Of a DNA stretch of 62,617 nt, positions 1-56,520 are shown piece after piece. The DNA is from a virus: positions 1 to 62,617 of IMG/VR virus record IMGVR_UViG_3300034106_002415, one strand, 5' to 3'. Under the pieces are notes generated by a model. It did no database searches and was not told the DNA's origin. It saw only the letters and a program-made list of their open reading frames with translations. The position numbers were made by a program, and so were the translations under genes. How positions within the stretch are numbered: the first letter of the stretch is position 1; every line of letters starts with the position of its first letter.

Positions 1-120
1 TCGCTGAACAACTTGCTTCTCAAGCCACATCTCTACCCATTCCGGGCGATATGCTCGCTGAGCAACTCGCTTCTCAAGCCGCTCCCGCCGCCGGTGGTCT
101 TGGTGTCACAGCTCCAGCAG
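1..120. repeat. Terminal direct repeat, left copy (circular join)
   Basis: Identical base for base to 62498-62617. The reading frame that is open at the right end continues in phase here, so the two ends join. The exact length of 120 looks like an assembler overlap rather than a biological terminal redundancy, but this cannot be settled from the sequence. Confidence 0.95.
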
Positions 121-1694
121 CCAAGACAGGTCTTGCTGGGTTTGGTCAGCGCTTCGGCCAAACAGCTTCCGCTGGTCTTGGTAAGGGTATGGCCGCTAAA
201 TACGCTCCTTACGCCGCTGGGCTTGGCTTGCTTAATGCTGCTAGCGAAGCATCCACGCCTACGGTTAGGATGCCAGAGGCGGAAGAGTACGAGTTCCCTC
301 TAGAAAACTACCAGCCGCTTAACCTCAATTATCGACCGCGTGAGCTAACCCCCGGCGGTGAAATCCAGTTCTTCGACGTGGTGAACCCGGTTCCGCCCCC
401 GCCCGTCCCCCGTAAGAAAGTAGGCCAGCGTTTTGCTGAAGGCGGCGAAGCCGAAGCTACAGGTGTTAATAATATCCCGATTGACCCGCAGATGTCGCAA
501 ATGTTGGCGGACTACACCCGCATGTTTAGCACGTCACCCGGTGCCATCACTGCGGCGTCAGGCTATCCTGCCCGTACACGTACGTCTGTTGGGGAAATTG
601 ATTTTAATTTGCAGGGTCCCACTGACGCATCGACTGGCACCCCCGGTGCACCTAATGTCCCCGGTTCGGGTGGGGAAACTACGGGTACCCCAGCTAACGT
701 AAGCGACAGCAACACCATGAATGCCGCCAACACCCAAAACTCTGTTAGCAATACGCAGTTTGATATCAACCGGCGAGATGGCGTATATAGCCCCGATCCG
801 CGTGGTCCTTACGTGCTGAACCCGTCACTTCCCGGCACCAACCTCGACGCCGTCAAAGTCTCTGGGCAGGGCGTGATGCCTGACTTCAAGCTCGAAGACT
901 TGCATATCAATCCGGTCAATATGCCGTTCAACGGCACCTATTCGCCTCTGTCACCGGGCACCACGATCCCCGGTATGGAGGTCTCTGGGGACGGTATAAT
1001 GCCTAACTTCACGCTGGACAGCCTGAAAGTGGACCCAGTCATAATCCCGCGAACCAACATATCCAGTGGTTACGGTGCCAGCGGCAGTATGGGTAACTAC
1101 AGAGGCGAGTTCGGTGGCTCCAGCCCGTTCAGCAATACGGGCGGCAACTTGAACAGCATGAGTAGCTTCGGTAATAACCTCGACTCTCGGATCAGCGGGG
1201 GGAACTACACCCTCCCCCCACTCACCTTCACTCCTCCGTTCACACTCCCCCCGCTCACGTTCCCCGGTTCGGTTGGCGGCGGTAACCTACCCACGGACCC
1301 CGAAGAGTACGAAGAGGCAAAAGCTCGCGGTGGTCTAGTGAATATGAAGGATGGTTCCTTTGTCGTCGACGCTCGTACAGTCTCTGAACTCGGCAATGGC
1401 AGCAGCAATGCTGGTATTGAGCATCTGGCTCGCATGGGTGGTCGTCCTGTTCGTGGTGCTGGCGATGGGGTTAGTGATTCTGTGCCAGCACGTATCGGAG
1501 GCCGTCAGAAAGCTCGGGTGGCGCGCGACGAGGTAATCTTCTCGCCGGAGGCGGTCAGCCGCCTTGGTGCTGGTAACCACAGCAAGGGTACCAAGAAGCT
1601 CTACGCTCTTATGGGTAAGGCCCATAGCGCTCGCAAGAAAGCGGGCCGGGGTCAGGACACCAAGGTCGCCAAGGGTCTGGGGGCTCTGAGGTGA
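1..1694 (+). CDS. Virion protein, 3' part of a gene split by the contig ends
   Basis: This is the continuation of the gene that starts at 61816. Joined across the 120-base overlap it would encode about 791 residues. The in-frame ATG at 51 lies inside a repeat and is not the true start. The part seen here is rich in Gly, Pro, Ser and Asn. It contains RFAEGGEAEATG (coded near 430-467) and a low-complexity TLPPLTF stretch near 1210-1260. The C-terminus is basic (KAHSARKKAGRGQDTKVAK). The position before a GNAT-like protein and two ejection-type proteins suggests an internal or tail-tip virion protein. No enzymatic domain is recognised. Confidence 0.8.
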   Translation, partial: AEQLASQATSLPIPGDMLAEQLASQAAPAAGGLGVTAPAAKTGLAGFGQRFGQTASAGLGKGMAAKYAPYAAGLGLLNAASEASTPTVRMPEAEEYEFPLENYQPLNLNYRPRELTPGGEIQFFDVVNPVPPPPVPRKKVGQRFAEGGEAEATGVNNIPIDPQMSQMLADYTRMFSTSPGAITAASGYPARTRTSVGEIDFNLQGPTDASTGTPGAPNVPGSGGETTGTPANVSDSNTMNAANTQNSVSNTQFDINRRDGVYSPDPRGPYVLNPSLPGTNLDAVKVSGQGVMPDFKLEDLHINPVNMPFNGTYSPLSPGTTIPGMEVSGDGIMPNFTLDSLKVDPVIIPRTNISSGYGASGSMGNYRGEFGGSSPFSNTGGNLNSMSSFGNNLDSRISGGNYTLPPLTFTPPFTLPPLTFPGSVGGGNLPTDPEEYEEAKARGGLVNMKDGSFVVDARTVSELGNGSSNAGIEHLARMGGRPVRGAGDGVSDSVPARIGGRQKARVARDEVIFSPEAVSRLGAGNHSKGTKKLYALMGKAHSARKKAGRGQDTKVAKGLGALR

Positions 1695-49015: not shown

Positions 49016-49413
49016 TCCCTAACCCTATTATGCTATACGCAGCGGCAGGCGCTCTCATTGTTGGTGCAGCCGCAGGGTATAAGGTCCGCGACTGGCAGTG
49101 TGACGCAGCGTACGCAAAGGCTATGGAAAAAGCTGAGAAGCAGCGCGTCAAAAAGCAAGAGGTGGTAGATGTTATTTCGCAAACGTATGAGGACCAACGC
49201 GATAAAGCCGATGGGGTGGCGACCGAGAGAACCTATACCATTCGCGAAATATACAAAACGGCTCCTGCCGTTCCTGTTGATTGTGCCGCTCCTGATGCTG
49301 TGCGTAAGCTGCTCGAAAGCGGTGTCCGTGACGCCAATGCCGCGTCCGCCGGCGAACCTAGCGTCGAAATGCCCAGCGCTTCAGAACCCGCCGCTGGTAC
49401 TGCTCGACCCTGA
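49012..49413 (+). CDS. Rz: Inner-membrane spanin subunit
   Basis: 133 residues from ATG 49012 (ATGA overlap with endolysin). One N-terminal membrane helix (IMLYAAAGALIVGAAAGYKV) and a coiled-coil periplasmic region. The second frame inside it carries the outer-membrane partner. Confidence 0.7.
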   Translation: MIPNPIMLYAAAGALIVGAAAGYKVRDWQCDAAYAKAMEKAEKQRVKKQEVVDVISQTYEDQRDKADGVATERTYTIREIYKTAPAVPVDCAAPDAVRKLLESGVRDANAASAGEPSVEMPSASEPAAGTARP

Positions 49414-49516
49414 ACGGGCGCTCTGGGAAGCGGACATGATTGCAAAATACGCGGATTGCAGTATAAAACACCGGCTGACGGTTAAAGCATGGGAAGACGC
49501 AGTAGCTGTAAAATAA
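49169..49516 (+). CDS. Rz1: Outer-membrane lipoprotein spanin subunit, nested
   Basis: Up to 115 residues, in another frame inside and beyond Rz. Signal helix LLPFLLIVPLLMLCVSC with a lipobox-type ending at Cys, then a Pro-rich stretch (VTPMPRPP). Downstream in-frame ATGs at 49187 and 49211 are alternative starts. The nested layout is that of the lambda Rz/Rz1 pair. Confidence 0.75.
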   Translation: MLFRKRMRTNAIKPMGWRPREPIPFAKYTKRLLPFLLIVPLLMLCVSCSKAVSVTPMPRPPANLASKCPALQNPPLVLLDPERALWEADMIAKYADCSIKHRLTVKAWEDAVAVK

Positions 49517-49525
49517 GGACGGCCC

Positions 49526-51862
49526 ATGGCCACATTCTACCTCGACTTCGACGGAGGCAATGACGCAAACAACGGCACGACTTTTGCCTTGCGGTGGAAG
49601 ACGATCACCAATGGCGCTACGGCTGGACGCCTTGCGGTGGGTGATACCGTCAGGATCATGGCCTCGCCTGATCCGACAAGCATTGGCAATGCGACTTGGA
49701 CGGGTGGCGGGCGTCCTGCTTCCGTAGGCATCTCATCATCTACTAACGCCACGCCTATCGTCATTACGACCTCGTCGGCGCACGGGCTAGTGACGGGCGA
49801 CTATGTGTCCGTTACGGGCCACACGACCAACACGAACGCCAACGGTGTCTGGAAAGTCGGCACTACGCCCACAAGCACCACGTTTCAAATCCTTCAGATT
49901 GACGGCACCAATACCACAGGTAACGGTGTTGGTGGCGCAACAGGCAACGTTACAAACGCGGACAACCTCGTCGTCAAGACGGCGTCGCCGCTGGTGCAGA
50001 ATATTGCCCTCTGCGGCGGTCTGGGGGAAAAGCCCGCTTGGACGGCCAGCGCAAACGTCACGACAGCGCGAAATACAGTAACCTATAAAGAAGGCAACTC
50101 CGCTGCCGAAATTGATATTTTTTCTGCGTTTACCACTGGCAAAGCGGCTTACTACACATTACCCGCAACGCTTGATTTGTCAGCTTATCAGCAAGTTTCG
50201 TTTTGGGTGCGTCTAAACTCTGGGTTTCTAGGCGCGGCGGGCCAAACTTACTTGGCGCTTTGCACCGACACCATTGGTGACACGGTCGCGCATCAGTGCA
50301 ATATCCCCGCAGTCGGCGCGACTGCTGTATGGGTGCCGGTCACGGTCAATTTGGGTACTAACCTCAACGCGGCCATCCGATCAGTGGCGTTCTATGTGGC
50401 CACCGATGGCCCCGCGCAAAACTTTAGGTTGGACAACATCGTTGCCTGCAAGGCCGCGTCGTCTGCCGACAGCGTGACGCTCAACTCGCTGATCTCTAAA
50501 TCGGACGGCACGGGCGATGAGGCGTGGTACGCCATCCAGAGCATCAACTATGATGTCATCATGCTGGCCAATGCCAATGGTAATACTAGTCAAACCGCCA
50601 ACATCCGAGGCTACAATGGCGTCACGGAGACGGTGACGACCTACAAGCGCGAGACGACAAAAACGGTGCCTGCCGCTACTTCCAACGCAATTGTGGCTGC
50701 TGTTAATGACGAAGGCAACCCCGGCAACCTCATCACCTACAGCGGCGGGTGGAACAGGACGGATATGTCCACGCAGACGGGCGTAACGTGGTACGACGGC
50801 ACCAACGGGTTTGGCATCGGCTTGCAGGCCAATGCGCGCGAGTATGTCCAAATTGATCGGCTAAACTTTTGTCGATATAACATAGCCGTCCAGATTACAT
50901 CAAGTTCAAACAACATGATTGTTGGCTCTATGTACATAACTGCCAGCTCCTCCACTGCGCTTGAAATGGGCGCAACCAACATTTTGAATTTTATTGGTTC
51001 GTCGTTGTGGATTAATAACAATGGGGGCGGTTTTACATACGCCGCAACAGGCGCAAATATTACAGATGTTAAACTGTTGTCTAATAACTCATCTAGCGGT
51101 GTAGATTTTGGCACCTCTCGGTATAACACAATTAGCTCTTTAATTGGCGGCAACAACGGCACCGGAACGTCTAATGGCGATATACTTTTTAACCAATGTT
51201 TTAACGGCACTGTTAGAACGGCGACACTAACCAACGGCCCCGGAAACGGAATTGTTTCTGGGATAAATGCGTTTAGTAATTCGGTCAACGGTGGCAGCAG
51301 TTCTGGTCACGCGCAAGGCGTGCTTGTTAATTCTACATCTGAGCTATATCTTAACAACTTTACTATTAACGAAGCCACAGAGGTCGGCACCGTTGGCACC
51401 GTGCCGGGGTTTGTTTACGCCAACCGCCTTGACGACACCGACAATAACAGTTGGGTTTTTCAGCCTAGCATCGGCACCGTCAACCAACAAACGTCGGTCG
51501 TGGACAGCCCCGCCACAACCGCGTGGCGCATGCGCCCAACGTCAACCAATGCCCGCGCAACCAGCCCCCTGCTACTTAAACTCGGCACCGTCGTTTGCGC
51601 CGCCAGCAGCGCCGTAACCGTCACGGCCCGTATGCAACGCGACAATGCCGGCTTGACCATGCGCCTCATCTGCCCCGGCGGCCAGATTACGGGCGTCTCT
51701 ACGGACGTGTTTACGGACATGACGGCTGCGGCGAACACTTGGGAAACCGTTTCTATTACGTTCACGCCCACCAAGGCAGGTGCGGTGGACATCTACGCCG
51801 AAGCCTTCGGCGGCACGACATTTTCCGGTTACGTCTGCAACCTCACAGCAACACAGGCATAA
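49526..51862 (+). CDS. Tail spike, beta-helix type (copy 1)
   Basis: 778 residues. The N-terminal region (1-145) and C-terminal region (from about 611, NFTINEATEV) are highly similar to those of copy 2. The centre is a Gly/Asn/Ser-rich region typical of a right-handed beta-helix, and more AT-rich. It probably binds or cuts a host surface polysaccharide; no hydrolase residues were recognised. Confidence 0.75.
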   Translation: MATFYLDFDGGNDANNGTTFALRWKTITNGATAGRLAVGDTVRIMASPDPTSIGNATWTGGGRPASVGISSSTNATPIVITTSSAHGLVTGDYVSVTGHTTNTNANGVWKVGTTPTSTTFQILQIDGTNTTGNGVGGATGNVTNADNLVVKTASPLVQNIALCGGLGEKPAWTASANVTTARNTVTYKEGNSAAEIDIFSAFTTGKAAYYTLPATLDLSAYQQVSFWVRLNSGFLGAAGQTYLALCTDTIGDTVAHQCNIPAVGATAVWVPVTVNLGTNLNAAIRSVAFYVATDGPAQNFRLDNIVACKAASSADSVTLNSLISKSDGTGDEAWYAIQSINYDVIMLANANGNTSQTANIRGYNGVTETVTTYKRETTKTVPAATSNAIVAAVNDEGNPGNLITYSGGWNRTDMSTQTGVTWYDGTNGFGIGLQANAREYVQIDRLNFCRYNIAVQITSSSNNMIVGSMYITASSSTALEMGATNILNFIGSSLWINNNGGGFTYAATGANITDVKLLSNNSSSGVDFGTSRYNTISSLIGGNNGTGTSNGDILFNQCFNGTVRTATLTNGPGNGIVSGINAFSNSVNGGSSSGHAQGVLVNSTSELYLNNFTINEATEVGTVGTVPGFVYANRLDDTDNNSWVFQPSIGTVNQQTSVVDSPATTAWRMRPTSTNARATSPLLLKLGTVVCAASSAVTVTARMQRDNAGLTMRLICPGGQITGVSTDVFTDMTAAANTWETVSITFTPTKAGAVDIYAEAFGGTTFSGYVCNLTATQA

Positions 51863-51865
51863 GCC

Positions 51866-52084
51866 ATGTATGAGATCATCGACCGTGAACAGGACGACGC
51901 CGGGAAATGGCGCATCCGCGTGGCCATCGGCGGCCAGACCGTGACGTTTAAGTTTGCGTCAGACCCCACAGACGAGGAGGCGCAGGCGCAGGCTGCGCGT
52001 TACGACGCTTCACAGGCAGTGGCGTCAGGCGAAACAGCCACTATCACGCCTGACCCGACCAACGGCGCTTTCCAAGTCACATAA
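51866..52084 (+). CDS. Small spike-associated protein (copy 1)
   Basis: 72 residues, MYEIIDREQDDAGKW, with a short beta domain (VAIGGQTVTFKFASDP) and an AQAQAARYDASQ helix. Located immediately after the spike, so it may help its assembly. A shortened copy follows spike 2. Confidence 0.6.
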   Translation: MYEIIDREQDDAGKWRIRVAIGGQTVTFKFASDPTDEEAQAQAARYDASQAVASGETATITPDPTNGAFQVT

Positions 52085-52099
52085 GGGGATATCAGCGCC

Positions 52100-54370
52100 G
52101 TGCCTACATTCTACATCGACTTTGAAAACGGCAACGACGCCGCCGCCGGCACGTCGTTTGCCACGCGATGGAGAACCATGACCAGCGGCGCTACGGCTGC
52201 GCGCATCGCGCCGGGTGATACGATCAGGATCATGGCGTCGCCCGATCTAACCAACATGGGCAACGCGACTTGGACAGGCGGCGGGCGTCCTTCTTCGGTT
52301 AACATCTCGTCGTCCACCAACGCCACGCCTATCGTGATCACAACCTCATCAGCGCATGGGCTGGTGGCGGGCGACTATGTCTTTGTCGCGGGTCATACCG
52401 TCAATACCAACGCCAACGGCACTTGGAAGGTCGGCACGGTGCCGACAGGGACTACATTTCAAATTCTTCAAATCGATGGCAGCAACACCACGGGCAACGG
52501 CGTCGGTGGCGCAACGGGCAACGTCACCAACGCCAACGGTAGCGTCGTCAAAACGGCAACGCCGCTTATACAGAACATTGCTCTGTGCGGCGGCTTGGGG
52601 GAAAAGCCTGCGTGGACGGCAAGTGCAAACGTCACGACAGGGGTAGGTGCGGGAAGAGAAGGCAATGGCAGTGCGTCATTTTCTATAGCCGCTGCGTTCA
52701 CTACAGGCAAAGCTGCGTACTACACGCTCCCTTCGACCCTTGACCTCTCAGGTTATCAGCAAGTTTCGTTCTGGATGCGCCAATTTGGGCCTTATGGTGC
52801 GGCAGGCCAAATGTATTTGGCACTTTGCACGGACACCATTGGCGACACCGTCGCGAACCAGTGCAACTTTCCTGCGCCCGTTACAAACAGTTGGTTTCCA
52901 GTGACGGTCAATCTTGGCACCAACCTCAACGCCGCTATCCGCTCAGTGGCGCTTTACGTTGTTACCGATCTTGGCGCGCAAAGCCTTGTGATTGACAACA
53001 TCACCGCGTCCAAAGCTGCCTCTTCCGCAGATAGCCTGACGCTTACATCACTGGTCTCAAAATCGGACGGCACGGGCGACGAAGCGTGGTACACCATCGA
53101 TAGCGTTAACTACGATGTCATCGTGATGTCGGCCTATTACACCGGCACCACCGGGACAGTGACAACTTACAAACGCGAGACTGTAAAGACCCCAGCAGGG
53201 TCTGGCGTTGATGGTCTCGGCGTTGGTATCGTCCAAGACAGCGGTACAGCCGGCAACGTCATCGCGTACAGTGGCGGGTGGAATAGAACGGATATGTCCA
53301 CGCAGACGGGGGTAACTTGGCTGGACGGTCAGAACGGAACCAACCGTGGTATAACCGCCGCTGGCTCTGGCCAAAATTTTTGGACAATGGATCGCGTCAA
53401 TCTGTGTCGTTATGGTCAGGGTCTTTCTTTTACTGCATCTGATATAACGATTGGAAATATGTACATTACGGCTAGTGCCTTAAGAGGCTCAAGCATCGGC
53501 GTAACCAACTCTACAATTACAAATGTCTGGTCTTATAACAACGGCGGTAACGGGATTGAATTTGGCGGTTTTGGTTCTACTATAACAAATGTTAAACTTG
53601 TAGCCGGCAATAGTTCTACTGGGTTAGTTTTCTCTGGCTCAAGATTCCATACCGTTGGCTCTGTAATTGGCGGCAATAACGGTAGTAATGACATACAATT
53701 TCAAGGTTTTAATTGCACGGTAGGGACGGCCACCTTAACCGGCTTCAATTCCCTTGCTACTGGCATTAGTTCAACCTCGTCAGCGTTTGATAACTTTGTC
53801 AATGGCGGTAGCAGTTCCGGCCATGCTCAAGGCGTGAGCCTTACTTCTGGCCAGTTGTATCTCAATAACTTCACCATCAACGAAGCCACAGAGGTTAGCA
53901 GCAGCACCGTGGCGGGATTTGTCTACGCCAATCGCCTCGACGACACCGACAACAACAGTTGGGTTTTTCAAGCGGGCATCGGCACCGTCAATCAACAGAC
54001 CGCAGTGGTGGACAGCCCCGCGACGACATCGTGGCGGATGCGCCCGACAACGACGACTGCCTCTGCAAACAGCCCGCTGCTGCTCAAATTGGGTACGGTG
54101 GTCTGCGCCGCCAGCAGCGCAGTGACGGTCACGGCCCGTATGCAGCGCGACAACACCCAACTGACCATGCGCCTGATCTGCCCCGGCGGTCAGATCACTG
54201 GTGTTTCCACAAGCGTGAGCAGCGACATGACGGCTGCGGCAAATACGTGGGAGACGGTTAGTATCACGTTCACGCCGACGGAAGCCGGCGCGGTGGACAT
54301 CTACGCCCATGCTTTTGGTGGAACAACGCGCAGCGGCTACGTCTGCAACCTCACAGCGACACAGGTCTGA
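52100..54370 (+). CDS. Tail spike, beta-helix type (copy 2)
   Basis: 756 residues from GTG 52100. The ends match copy 1 but the middle (about 420-590) is largely different. This fits two receptor-binding proteins with a common attachment and trimerisation frame. Confidence 0.75.
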   Translation: MPTFYIDFENGNDAAAGTSFATRWRTMTSGATAARIAPGDTIRIMASPDLTNMGNATWTGGGRPSSVNISSSTNATPIVITTSSAHGLVAGDYVFVAGHTVNTNANGTWKVGTVPTGTTFQILQIDGSNTTGNGVGGATGNVTNANGSVVKTATPLIQNIALCGGLGEKPAWTASANVTTGVGAGREGNGSASFSIAAAFTTGKAAYYTLPSTLDLSGYQQVSFWMRQFGPYGAAGQMYLALCTDTIGDTVANQCNFPAPVTNSWFPVTVNLGTNLNAAIRSVALYVVTDLGAQSLVIDNITASKAASSADSLTLTSLVSKSDGTGDEAWYTIDSVNYDVIVMSAYYTGTTGTVTTYKRETVKTPAGSGVDGLGVGIVQDSGTAGNVIAYSGGWNRTDMSTQTGVTWLDGQNGTNRGITAAGSGQNFWTMDRVNLCRYGQGLSFTASDITIGNMYITASALRGSSIGVTNSTITNVWSYNNGGNGIEFGGFGSTITNVKLVAGNSSTGLVFSGSRFHTVGSVIGGNNGSNDIQFQGFNCTVGTATLTGFNSLATGISSTSSAFDNFVNGGSSSGHAQGVSLTSGQLYLNNFTINEATEVSSSTVAGFVYANRLDDTDNNSWVFQAGIGTVNQQTAVVDSPATTSWRMRPTTTTASANSPLLLKLGTVVCAASSAVTVTARMQRDNTQLTMRLICPGGQITGVSTSVSSDMTAAANTWETVSITFTPTEAGAVDIYAHAFGGTTRSGYVCNLTATQV

Positions 54371-54371
54371 C

Positions 54372-54479
54372 ATGTACGAGATCATTGACCGTGAGCAAAA
54401 CGAGGAAGTGCAGGCGCAGGCTGCGCGTTACGGCGCGATGATGCAGGGACAGTCAGATGCCGCTCCCAACACGAACTGA
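54372..54479 (+). pseudogene. Internally deleted copy of the MYEIIDREQ gene
   Basis: 35 residues. MYEIIDREQ is retained and joined through NEEV to QAQAARY, with the middle beta domain of copy 1 (about 27 residues) missing. The new C-terminus overlaps the next gene. It may still be translated, perhaps as a leader for the fibre gene. Confidence 0.65.
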
Positions 54480-56520
54480 TGTCCTCACCCTAGACTTTAC
54501 GGGTGCCGGTCAACCGGCGGCGTATATCGAAGCCAAGACGCTCAGCCCGTCTTCGGCAACGCTCGATTATACGCTGGCGGGGCAGCCCGCTTTTGGCCTC
54601 GCGCCCGCAGGGGGCGGCGGGGTTACTGTAAACCTTACCGGTGTTTCTGCGACGGGTTCGGTCGGCACTGCTACGATTCAAGCGCTAGCTAATATACTTA
54701 CCACTGACGTTTCTGCGTTAGGTTTGGTTGGTACTGCTACGGCTGCGGCTAACATCAGTATACTTGTCACTGGTGTTTCTGCGACGGGTTCGGTCGGCAC
54801 TGCTACAACTCAAGCGTTAGCTAATATACTTGCCACCGGTGTTTCTGCGACGGGTTCGGTCGGCACTGCTACGGCTGCGGCTAACACCAGTGTGCCTGTT
54901 ACTGATGTTTTTGCGGTAGGTTCGGTCGGTGACGTTACGATCCAAACGCTAGCTAACGTACTTGTCACCGGTGTTTCTGCGGCAGGTTTGGTTAACGATG
55001 TCGCGATTGCGGCTAGCACCAGTGTGCCTGTTACTGACGTTTTTGCGATGGGTTTGATTGAGAGTGTTACGACCCAAGCGCCAGCTAACGTACTCGTCAC
55101 TGGTGTTTCCGCTGAAGCCATTATTGAGGGCGTCGGTATAGCTAGTGGTGGCAATATCAGCGTCGATCCGGGCAGCGTAGTTAGCACGGGGTTCGTAGGC
55201 GTTGTAACGGTAAACGTCATAGCGAATATCTCCGTTACGCTTACAGGCGTTGAATCTACTGGCTCAGTTGGCACGGTTACAGCCTCCACCCCCGCTAGCT
55301 TCTCGGTCACAGGCGTATCCGCTGATGGCTCGGTTGGCACCACCCAAGTCACGGGTAAAGCCAACACCACCCTGACCGGTGTCTCCGCTGTTGGCTCAGT
55401 TGGCACCGTAGCTATCGGCGCTGCTGCTTCTACCACCCTGACCGGTGTTTCTGCCGCAGGCGCAGTGGGCACAGTTTCTGTTAGTGAAGGCACTAGCTTC
55501 TCGGTCACGGGCGTCTCAGCTACTGCTTTCGTTGGCACCACCCAAGTCACGGGTAAAGCCAACACCACCCTGACCGGTGTCTCCGCTGTTGGCTCAGTTG
55601 GCTCGGTTTCTGTTGCCGAAGGTACAGGCGTCACCCTCACAGGTGTTTCTGCCGCAGGCGCAGTGGGCACAGTTTCTGTTAGTGAAGGCACTAGCTTCTC
55701 GGTCACGGGCGTCTCCGCTGATGGCTCGGTTGGCACCGCCCAAGTCACGGGTAAAGCCAACACCACTCTGACCGGTGTCTCTGCTACCGGCTCAGCTGGC
55801 TCGGTTTCTGTTGCCGAAGGTACAGGCGTCACCCTCACGGGTGTTGAGGCTACTGGCTCAACTGGGACCGCCACCACTACCGGTAAGGCCAACGTTTTCC
55901 CAACCGAGGTGTCGGCCAACGGGCTTGTTGGTACAGCGAGCACCTCGACCAATAACAACCTACAGGTTACCGGCGTAAGCGCTGCTGCTTCTGTCGGCAC
56001 TGCTATCGCCGCAGCTTCGGCTAGTGCTCCTGTTACGGGCGTCTCTGCTGCTGGCGATGTTGGCACGGTTTTTGTCGCTGCTAACTGCAACGTGCTGCCC
56101 GATGGCGTCTCGGCTACTGCTTCCGCTGGCACCGCCCAAGTCACAGGTAAAGCCAATGTCACCCTGACCGGCGTTAGCGCACAAGGTGCGGTTGGTACGG
56201 TTACTACTGAATCGGCCTATTACGTCACCGGTGTGTCCGCCGCCGTATCGGTAGGTACTGTTTCGGTTGCCTCCAAGGGGAACGTGTTTGTTACGGGGGT
56301 CGAGGCTACCGGCGTCGTTGCCAAGGTCCTTGTTTGGGGTGTTATCAACGACAATCAGGTACCCAACTGGCAAGACGTCAACGACTCGCAAAGCGTGACT
56401 TGGTCTGCTATAGACGACAACCAGACACCTAACTGGCAGGCGGTAAACGCCTCGCAATCCATTACGTGGGGTGCTATAAACGACGGGAACACCGTGGTAT
56501 GGGTACAGATACCAACGTAA
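54457..56520 (+). CDS. Repeat-rich tail fibre
   Basis: 687 residues. After an N-terminal region of about 59 residues come about 26 units of 22 residues with the consensus VTGVSAxGSVGTxxV. The C-terminal end has PNWQxV/VTWxxI repeats (NDNQVPNWQDVN, SIT). It resembles Ig-like or beta-prism fibre shafts of marine phages. The start overlaps the previous small gene. Confidence 0.75.
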   Translation: MPLPTRTDVLTLDFTGAGQPAAYIEAKTLSPSSATLDYTLAGQPAFGLAPAGGGGVTVNLTGVSATGSVGTATIQALANILTTDVSALGLVGTATAAANISILVTGVSATGSVGTATTQALANILATGVSATGSVGTATAAANTSVPVTDVFAVGSVGDVTIQTLANVLVTGVSAAGLVNDVAIAASTSVPVTDVFAMGLIESVTTQAPANVLVTGVSAEAIIEGVGIASGGNISVDPGSVVSTGFVGVVTVNVIANISVTLTGVESTGSVGTVTASTPASFSVTGVSADGSVGTTQVTGKANTTLTGVSAVGSVGTVAIGAAASTTLTGVSAAGAVGTVSVSEGTSFSVTGVSATAFVGTTQVTGKANTTLTGVSAVGSVGSVSVAEGTGVTLTGVSAAGAVGTVSVSEGTSFSVTGVSADGSVGTAQVTGKANTTLTGVSATGSAGSVSVAEGTGVTLTGVEATGSTGTATTTGKANVFPTEVSANGLVGTASTSTNNNLQVTGVSAAASVGTAIAAASASAPVTGVSAAGDVGTVFVAANCNVLPDGVSATASAGTAQVTGKANVTLTGVSAQGAVGTVTTESAYYVTGVSAAVSVGTVSVASKGNVFVTGVEATGVVAKVLVWGVINDNQVPNWQDVNDSQSVTWSAIDDNQTPNWQAVNASQSITWGAINDGNTVVWVQIPT
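54634..56343 (+). repeat. 66-bp tandem repeats in the fibre gene
   Basis: About 26 imperfect units. The central units (about 55300-55860) are the most alike and form larger super-repeats, suggesting recent expansion. Confidence 0.8.

Follow-up and report, generated by a model that had tools for sequence, protein, structure and literature searches.

Phages are known to widen their host range by taking up spikes from one another. Phages with several spikes, and the gain of spikes by recombination, are established in the Ackermannviridae (PMC11414711). Their TSP1-TSP4 clusters, for instance those of S117 and CBA120, show that acquisition of spike genes together with recombination alters host recognition, and duplication of an ancestral spike has been proposed (PMC11414711, PMC8432352). 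Addition of a fifth spike gene of similar sequence resulted in recombination among the spike genes (PMC11414711). The T7-like Klebsiella phages K5-2 and K5-4 are dual-depolymerase phages; one section of the paper on them bears the title 'Each K5-2 virion contains both tail proteins' (PMC5496888). Here we describe a locus with two spike-like genes, A and B, in the viral record IMGVR_UViG_3300034106_002415. The whole stretch of 62,617 nt that was analysed is referred to as the window. Both genes were probably acquired from other phages and stacked at a single site.

Results

The original prediction, made from the letters of the window, described two spike genes in tandem, each followed by a short gene beginning with MYEIIDREQ. 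All four ORFs (spike A, companion M1, spike B and companion M2) were found where they had been placed (Table 1), and alignment confirmed that A and B are head-to-tail homologues along their whole length. Another record, L001, is 100% identical to the window over 15,610 nt and may derive from the same sample. An identical 120-bp direct terminal repeat (positions 1-120 and 62498-62617) suggests that the record covers the entire genome or is a circular assembly that was opened with an overlap. A 1901-aa gene at 4664-10369 matches the large PHROG families of unknown function phrog_14770 and phrog_616.

Table 1. Features of the tandem spike locus (nucleotide positions in the window; residues for the domains of spike A).
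Feature	Position	Strand	Description
Outer-spanin-like gene	49169..49516	+	Near-identity to empty-site relatives ends at its stop codon (left insertion edge)
Spike A	49526..51862	+	ORF, 778 aa
Spike A, N-terminal beta-helix cap	residues 1-60		From model strands and family matches
Spike A, inserted small beta domain	residues about 60-145		From model strands and family matches
Spike A, CBM-like sandwich	residues about 178-308		From model strands and family matches
Spike A, beta-helix rungs	residues about 310-655		Hypervariable part 426-600; from model strands and family matches
Spike A, C-terminal CBM-like sandwich	residues about 660-778		From model strands and family matches
Spike A, hypervariable AT-rich centre	50801..51325	+	Codons 426-600; GC 0.46, third-position GC 0.47
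M1 companion	51866..52084	+	72-aa chimera: residues 1-46 MYEIIDREQ family; tail from phrog_644-type gene end
Joint between both cassettes	52000..52088	+	88% DNA identity to L005 pre-spike gene end and downstream spacer
Spike B	52100..54370	+	ORF, 756 aa, GTG start; architecture as in A
M2 companion	54372..54479	+	35 aa; MYEIIDREQ head in frame with normal C-terminal half of family
687-aa repeat gene, first 55 codons	54457..54621	+	Spike-cassette origin; same head after M in spike-bearing phages
687-aa repeat gene, remainder	54622..56520	+	Resident 22-aa repeats

In the nearest backbone relatives, whose lysis-gene proteins are 96-98% identical to those of the window, the insertion site is empty and the spanin gene is followed directly by the repeat gene. 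At the DNA level, L082, L083 and L096 are 92-96% identical to the window up to position 49514, where this identity stops. No spike match was obtained in 12 same-backbone records of 58-68 kb, and the same query finds the spike in all spike-bearing records (20/20). The metagenome search proposed with the original prediction did recover single-copy relatives. They reside in other backbones, whose terminase and structural protein are distant or were not found, some of these records being fragments. Absence from close backbone relatives combined with presence in other backbones is the pattern of horizontal acquisition. One spike occupies the same site in L013, a more distant backbone relative (structural protein 69%); thus, the position of A could be older and have been lost in the others. 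In another phage, three distant spike relatives, 54-71% identical to each other, lie in tandem (L030:8001-15239), indicating that tandem stacking happened more than once.

Downstream of the spikes, the first 55 residues of the 687-aa gene are of the kind found in spike cassettes, and the resident repeats come after them; in most empty-site relatives its counterpart starts with a different head (MFGF...). A 66-nt repeat, encoding 22 residues of the TGVSATGSVGT type, occurs about 21 times in the gene (54635-56263), and among backbone relatives the gene product ranges between about 230 and over 1000 residues in length. In yet another record this insertion site is occupied by a different protein of 1020 aa, which is fused to the repeat gene (L117:470-3532), suggesting that the site takes varied inserts.

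Among the close family members that were examined, nearly all have a short M gene (about 60-67 residues) behind the spike; in distant members it is longer or more divergent. Neither PHROGs nor Pfam yielded a family for M, and a search for it in named phages gave none. M1 has kept the family core; its residues 1-46 are those of an ordinary M, and a foreign tail follows. In L005 and L052, the spike is immediately preceded by a 134-aa gene, and it is the end of this gene that the tail of M1 matches. In the comparison with L005, 78 of the 89 bases of the M1-tail segment are identical (88%; score 123, against a maximum of 23 in 200 shuffles), which argues that B came with its own upstream flank. 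The segment is absent from the sequence upstream of A, i.e. the second copy does not carry the flank of the first, as it would after duplication within the genome. Among other contigs the M1 joint was found only in one identical contig. Small phrog_644-type genes precede many different tail-end genes across phages (L005:971-1375 and L161-L239) and may be a common recombination edge.

The second MYEIIDREQ gene had been described as lacking its middle. Indeed, M2 misses 26 codons of the family's 61-residue form, among them those of the conserved KWRIRV-type core, and it is probably non-functional. Should M act on the spike, M1 might do so for A as well as for B. A stretch of 37 nt shared by M1 and M2 (92%) was considered as a target-site duplication and rejected because other family members match M2 equally well (90-92%).

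A full-length alignment of A and B gave a protein identity of about 70%. It amounts to 81% in residues 1-170, 72% in residues 180-330, 64% in residues 331-425 and only 48% in residues 426-600 before rising to 85% in the last 178 residues (601-778), consistent with the predicted close ends and strongly different centres. A good end-to-end alignment of the centres had been named as evidence against the original prediction. Despite their strong divergence they do align, with 47% identity over 175 aa (E=1e-36), which partly speaks against that prediction. Synonymous divergence between A and B (about 0.5) is near-uniform along the gene (four-fold-site differences of 0.49, 0.53, 0.48, 0.64 and 0.52) and as deep as that between A and the spikes of other phages. 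Over much of its length, A is nearer to spikes of other phages than to B. The longest run identical between A and B measures 23 nt, and synonymous differences do not drop at the ends; recent gene conversion between the two genes was rejected on these grounds. Trees with weak support placed A among single-copy genes and B apart. A sister relationship of A and B was rejected for the C-terminus (p 0.041); the value for the whole gene (p 0.087) was above 0.05. Triplet tests revealed strong mosaicism among spike alleles. L029 is mostly 95-100% identical to the window through the lysis genes (one 100-nt block at 90%). Inside its spike, identity falls in successive 100-nt blocks (0.90, 0.81, 0.74), to 74% within 370 nt, and the contig then ends. 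Thus, the spike varies even among close relatives.

Both centres are AT-richer than their surroundings, as had been noticed at the outset, with a GC content of about 46% versus 57-60% in the flanks. The single-copy relatives from other phages share only about 37-48% identity with each other at residues 451-600 and more at both ends, and a GC dip is present in every one examined (third-position GC of the centre 0.39-0.54). The divergent AT-rich centre is therefore a trait of the family and no mark of the tandem. An amino-acid effect is insufficient as the cause of the dip, since third-position GC of the centre lay below the expectation from flank codon usage in 14/14 genes compared, by about 0.1-0.3. 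It is doubtful, and in our estimate very unlikely, that the AT-shifted codon usage of the centre is maintained by selection or by a targeted diversification process. If it were, the spike family would be a system to study in-place diversification of receptor-binding regions.

Structure prediction of the monomers with AlphaFold yielded confident models of both spikes (mean pLDDT 91.6 and pTM 0.87 for A, 89.2 and 0.84 for B), which are right-handed beta-helices with carbohydrate-binding-like sandwiches. In VIA-align comparisons, A resembled the glycoside hydrolase BT_1002 (Z 28.3, rmsd 2.4, 283 aligned), the pectate lyase Pel9A (Z 27.9, rmsd 2.7, 288 aligned), the Dettilon gp208 tailspike (Z 23.7, rmsd 2.7, 277 aligned), several tailspikes with Z 20-26 and alginate lyases, and B gave similar matches (Z 20-28 for the two spikes against beta-helix lyases and tailspikes), most match ranges covering only residues 1-684 of A and 1-653 of B. 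The sandwich domains resemble carbohydrate-binding modules, and one family member has a CBM_4_9 match. In Pfam, Beta_helix and NosD were each matched by two family members. A sequence search against solved structures returned nothing useful. Both models possess the parallel beta-helix central domain of right-handed beta-helix phage tailspikes. A tail-anchoring domain was detected in neither A nor B by Pfam or PHROG, and the helix cap starts at residue 1; some relatives match a major-tail-protein domain at residues about 57-143.

Discussion

Directly readable from the sequence are the two copies, the empty site, the chimeric joints, the single copies elsewhere and the hypervariable centre common to all. 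The closest relatives lack both spikes and the junction keeps a piece of another phage's gene; hence, the spikes appear to have been acquired from other phages. We favour the reading, with a probability of about 0.7, that A and B represent two alleles of a single family of phage spikes, built of a beta-helix and two carbohydrate-binding-like sandwiches, and that they were drawn from a recombining pool and stacked at an insertion site that separates the lysis genes from the tail-fibre genes. As a rule, the family travels as one spike with the 61-residue M behind it and the start of the gene that comes next. B would have brought along the terminal part of the gene upstream of it in the donor, and this part would have been fused in frame to the resident companion to form M1; that the two gains came in this order is our inference. 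The second companion would have lost its core and become M2, and the head of the cassette's last gene would have been fused to the resident repeat gene.

The original prediction explained the locus differently, by tandem duplication within the genome followed by replacement of the receptor-binding centre. Such a duplication, with subsequent divergence or replacement in one copy, fits the head-to-tail order of spikes and companions and the conserved ends around a divergent centre, and the whole-gene test does not reject sisterhood of A and B. It is nevertheless highly improbable, as the site is empty in near relatives and the flank upstream of B stems from the gene of a different phage, unlike the flank of A. 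Moreover, synonymous sites differ almost evenly along the gene and to the depth seen between phages, A is over long stretches nearer to foreign spikes than to B, no identical run exceeds 23 nt, and single-copy relatives have a centre just as divergent and AT-rich. The depth of the A-B divergence could also mean that the two-spike array is old, arose in a different phage lineage and was transferred as a unit, and tandem arrays do exist elsewhere, as in L030 with its three copies. We consider this rather unlikely, because the M1 joint occurs in no other contig found except the identical one and because the close spike relatives are all single-copy, although several of these records are fragments.

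A fold in common does not show function. A and B might be glycan-active enzymes of late infection, either secreted or attached to the capsid, instead of virion spikes. The lack of a recognised tail-anchoring domain, the adjoining lysis genes and the best fold matches, which are free polysaccharide lyases, are compatible with such a role. Yet the likeness to phage tailspikes is strong too, the downstream neighbours encode tail-fibre-like proteins and a structural protein, and hypervariability of the beta-helix centre fits receptor binding, so that we assign the enzyme role only a small chance. As virion spikes, A and B would both be carried on the particle and, according to the models, would bind or cut surface polysaccharide. 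In agreement with the original prediction, models and alignments revealed two spike-like proteins whose variation is concentrated in a beta-helix centre of the glycan-binding kind, which makes two specificities plausible. Through their different centres, the two modelled spikes probably provide two glycan specificities. The spike family appears to be widespread in environmental phages and uncharacterised.

Conserved ends enclosing a divergent AT-rich centre invite the conclusion of duplication plus replacement. The same pattern in single-copy relatives shows that it is no proof of this, and the tempting inference is corrected here. As the joints are still readable, the locus illustrates how a phage can gain a second spike, with the empty site, the donor gene end and a broken companion kept. 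Set against the recombination among similar spike genes in Ackermannviridae (PMC11414711), the longest identical run of A and B is so short that it may help the tandem to persist.

As in the Ackermannviridae, several beta-helix spikes are encoded together in the window. TSP2 of CBA120 is a fold match to A with Z 26.2 but an rmsd of 13.0 over 350 residues. In contrast to that family, no Gp10-like or XD attachment domains were recognised, the backbone is different, and both spikes come from a single sequence family, have ends that match and are accompanied by a small gene. With K5-2 and K5-4 the window shares the presence of two spike or depolymerase genes per phage (PMC5496888); those phages belong to another family, and their activity and host are known. 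A sequence homologue of A (35% over 80% of A) is encoded by the archaeal Methanosarcina virus MetMV (AZF89914.1, L316:3542-5893), an uncharacterised hypothetical protein and the single match in that record. Right-handed beta-helix polysaccharide lyases (Pel9A, alginate lyases, AlgE epimerases) have the central-domain fold in common with the spikes at 10-20% identity. The tandem spike locus is a well-documented case of a known route and no new kind of system.
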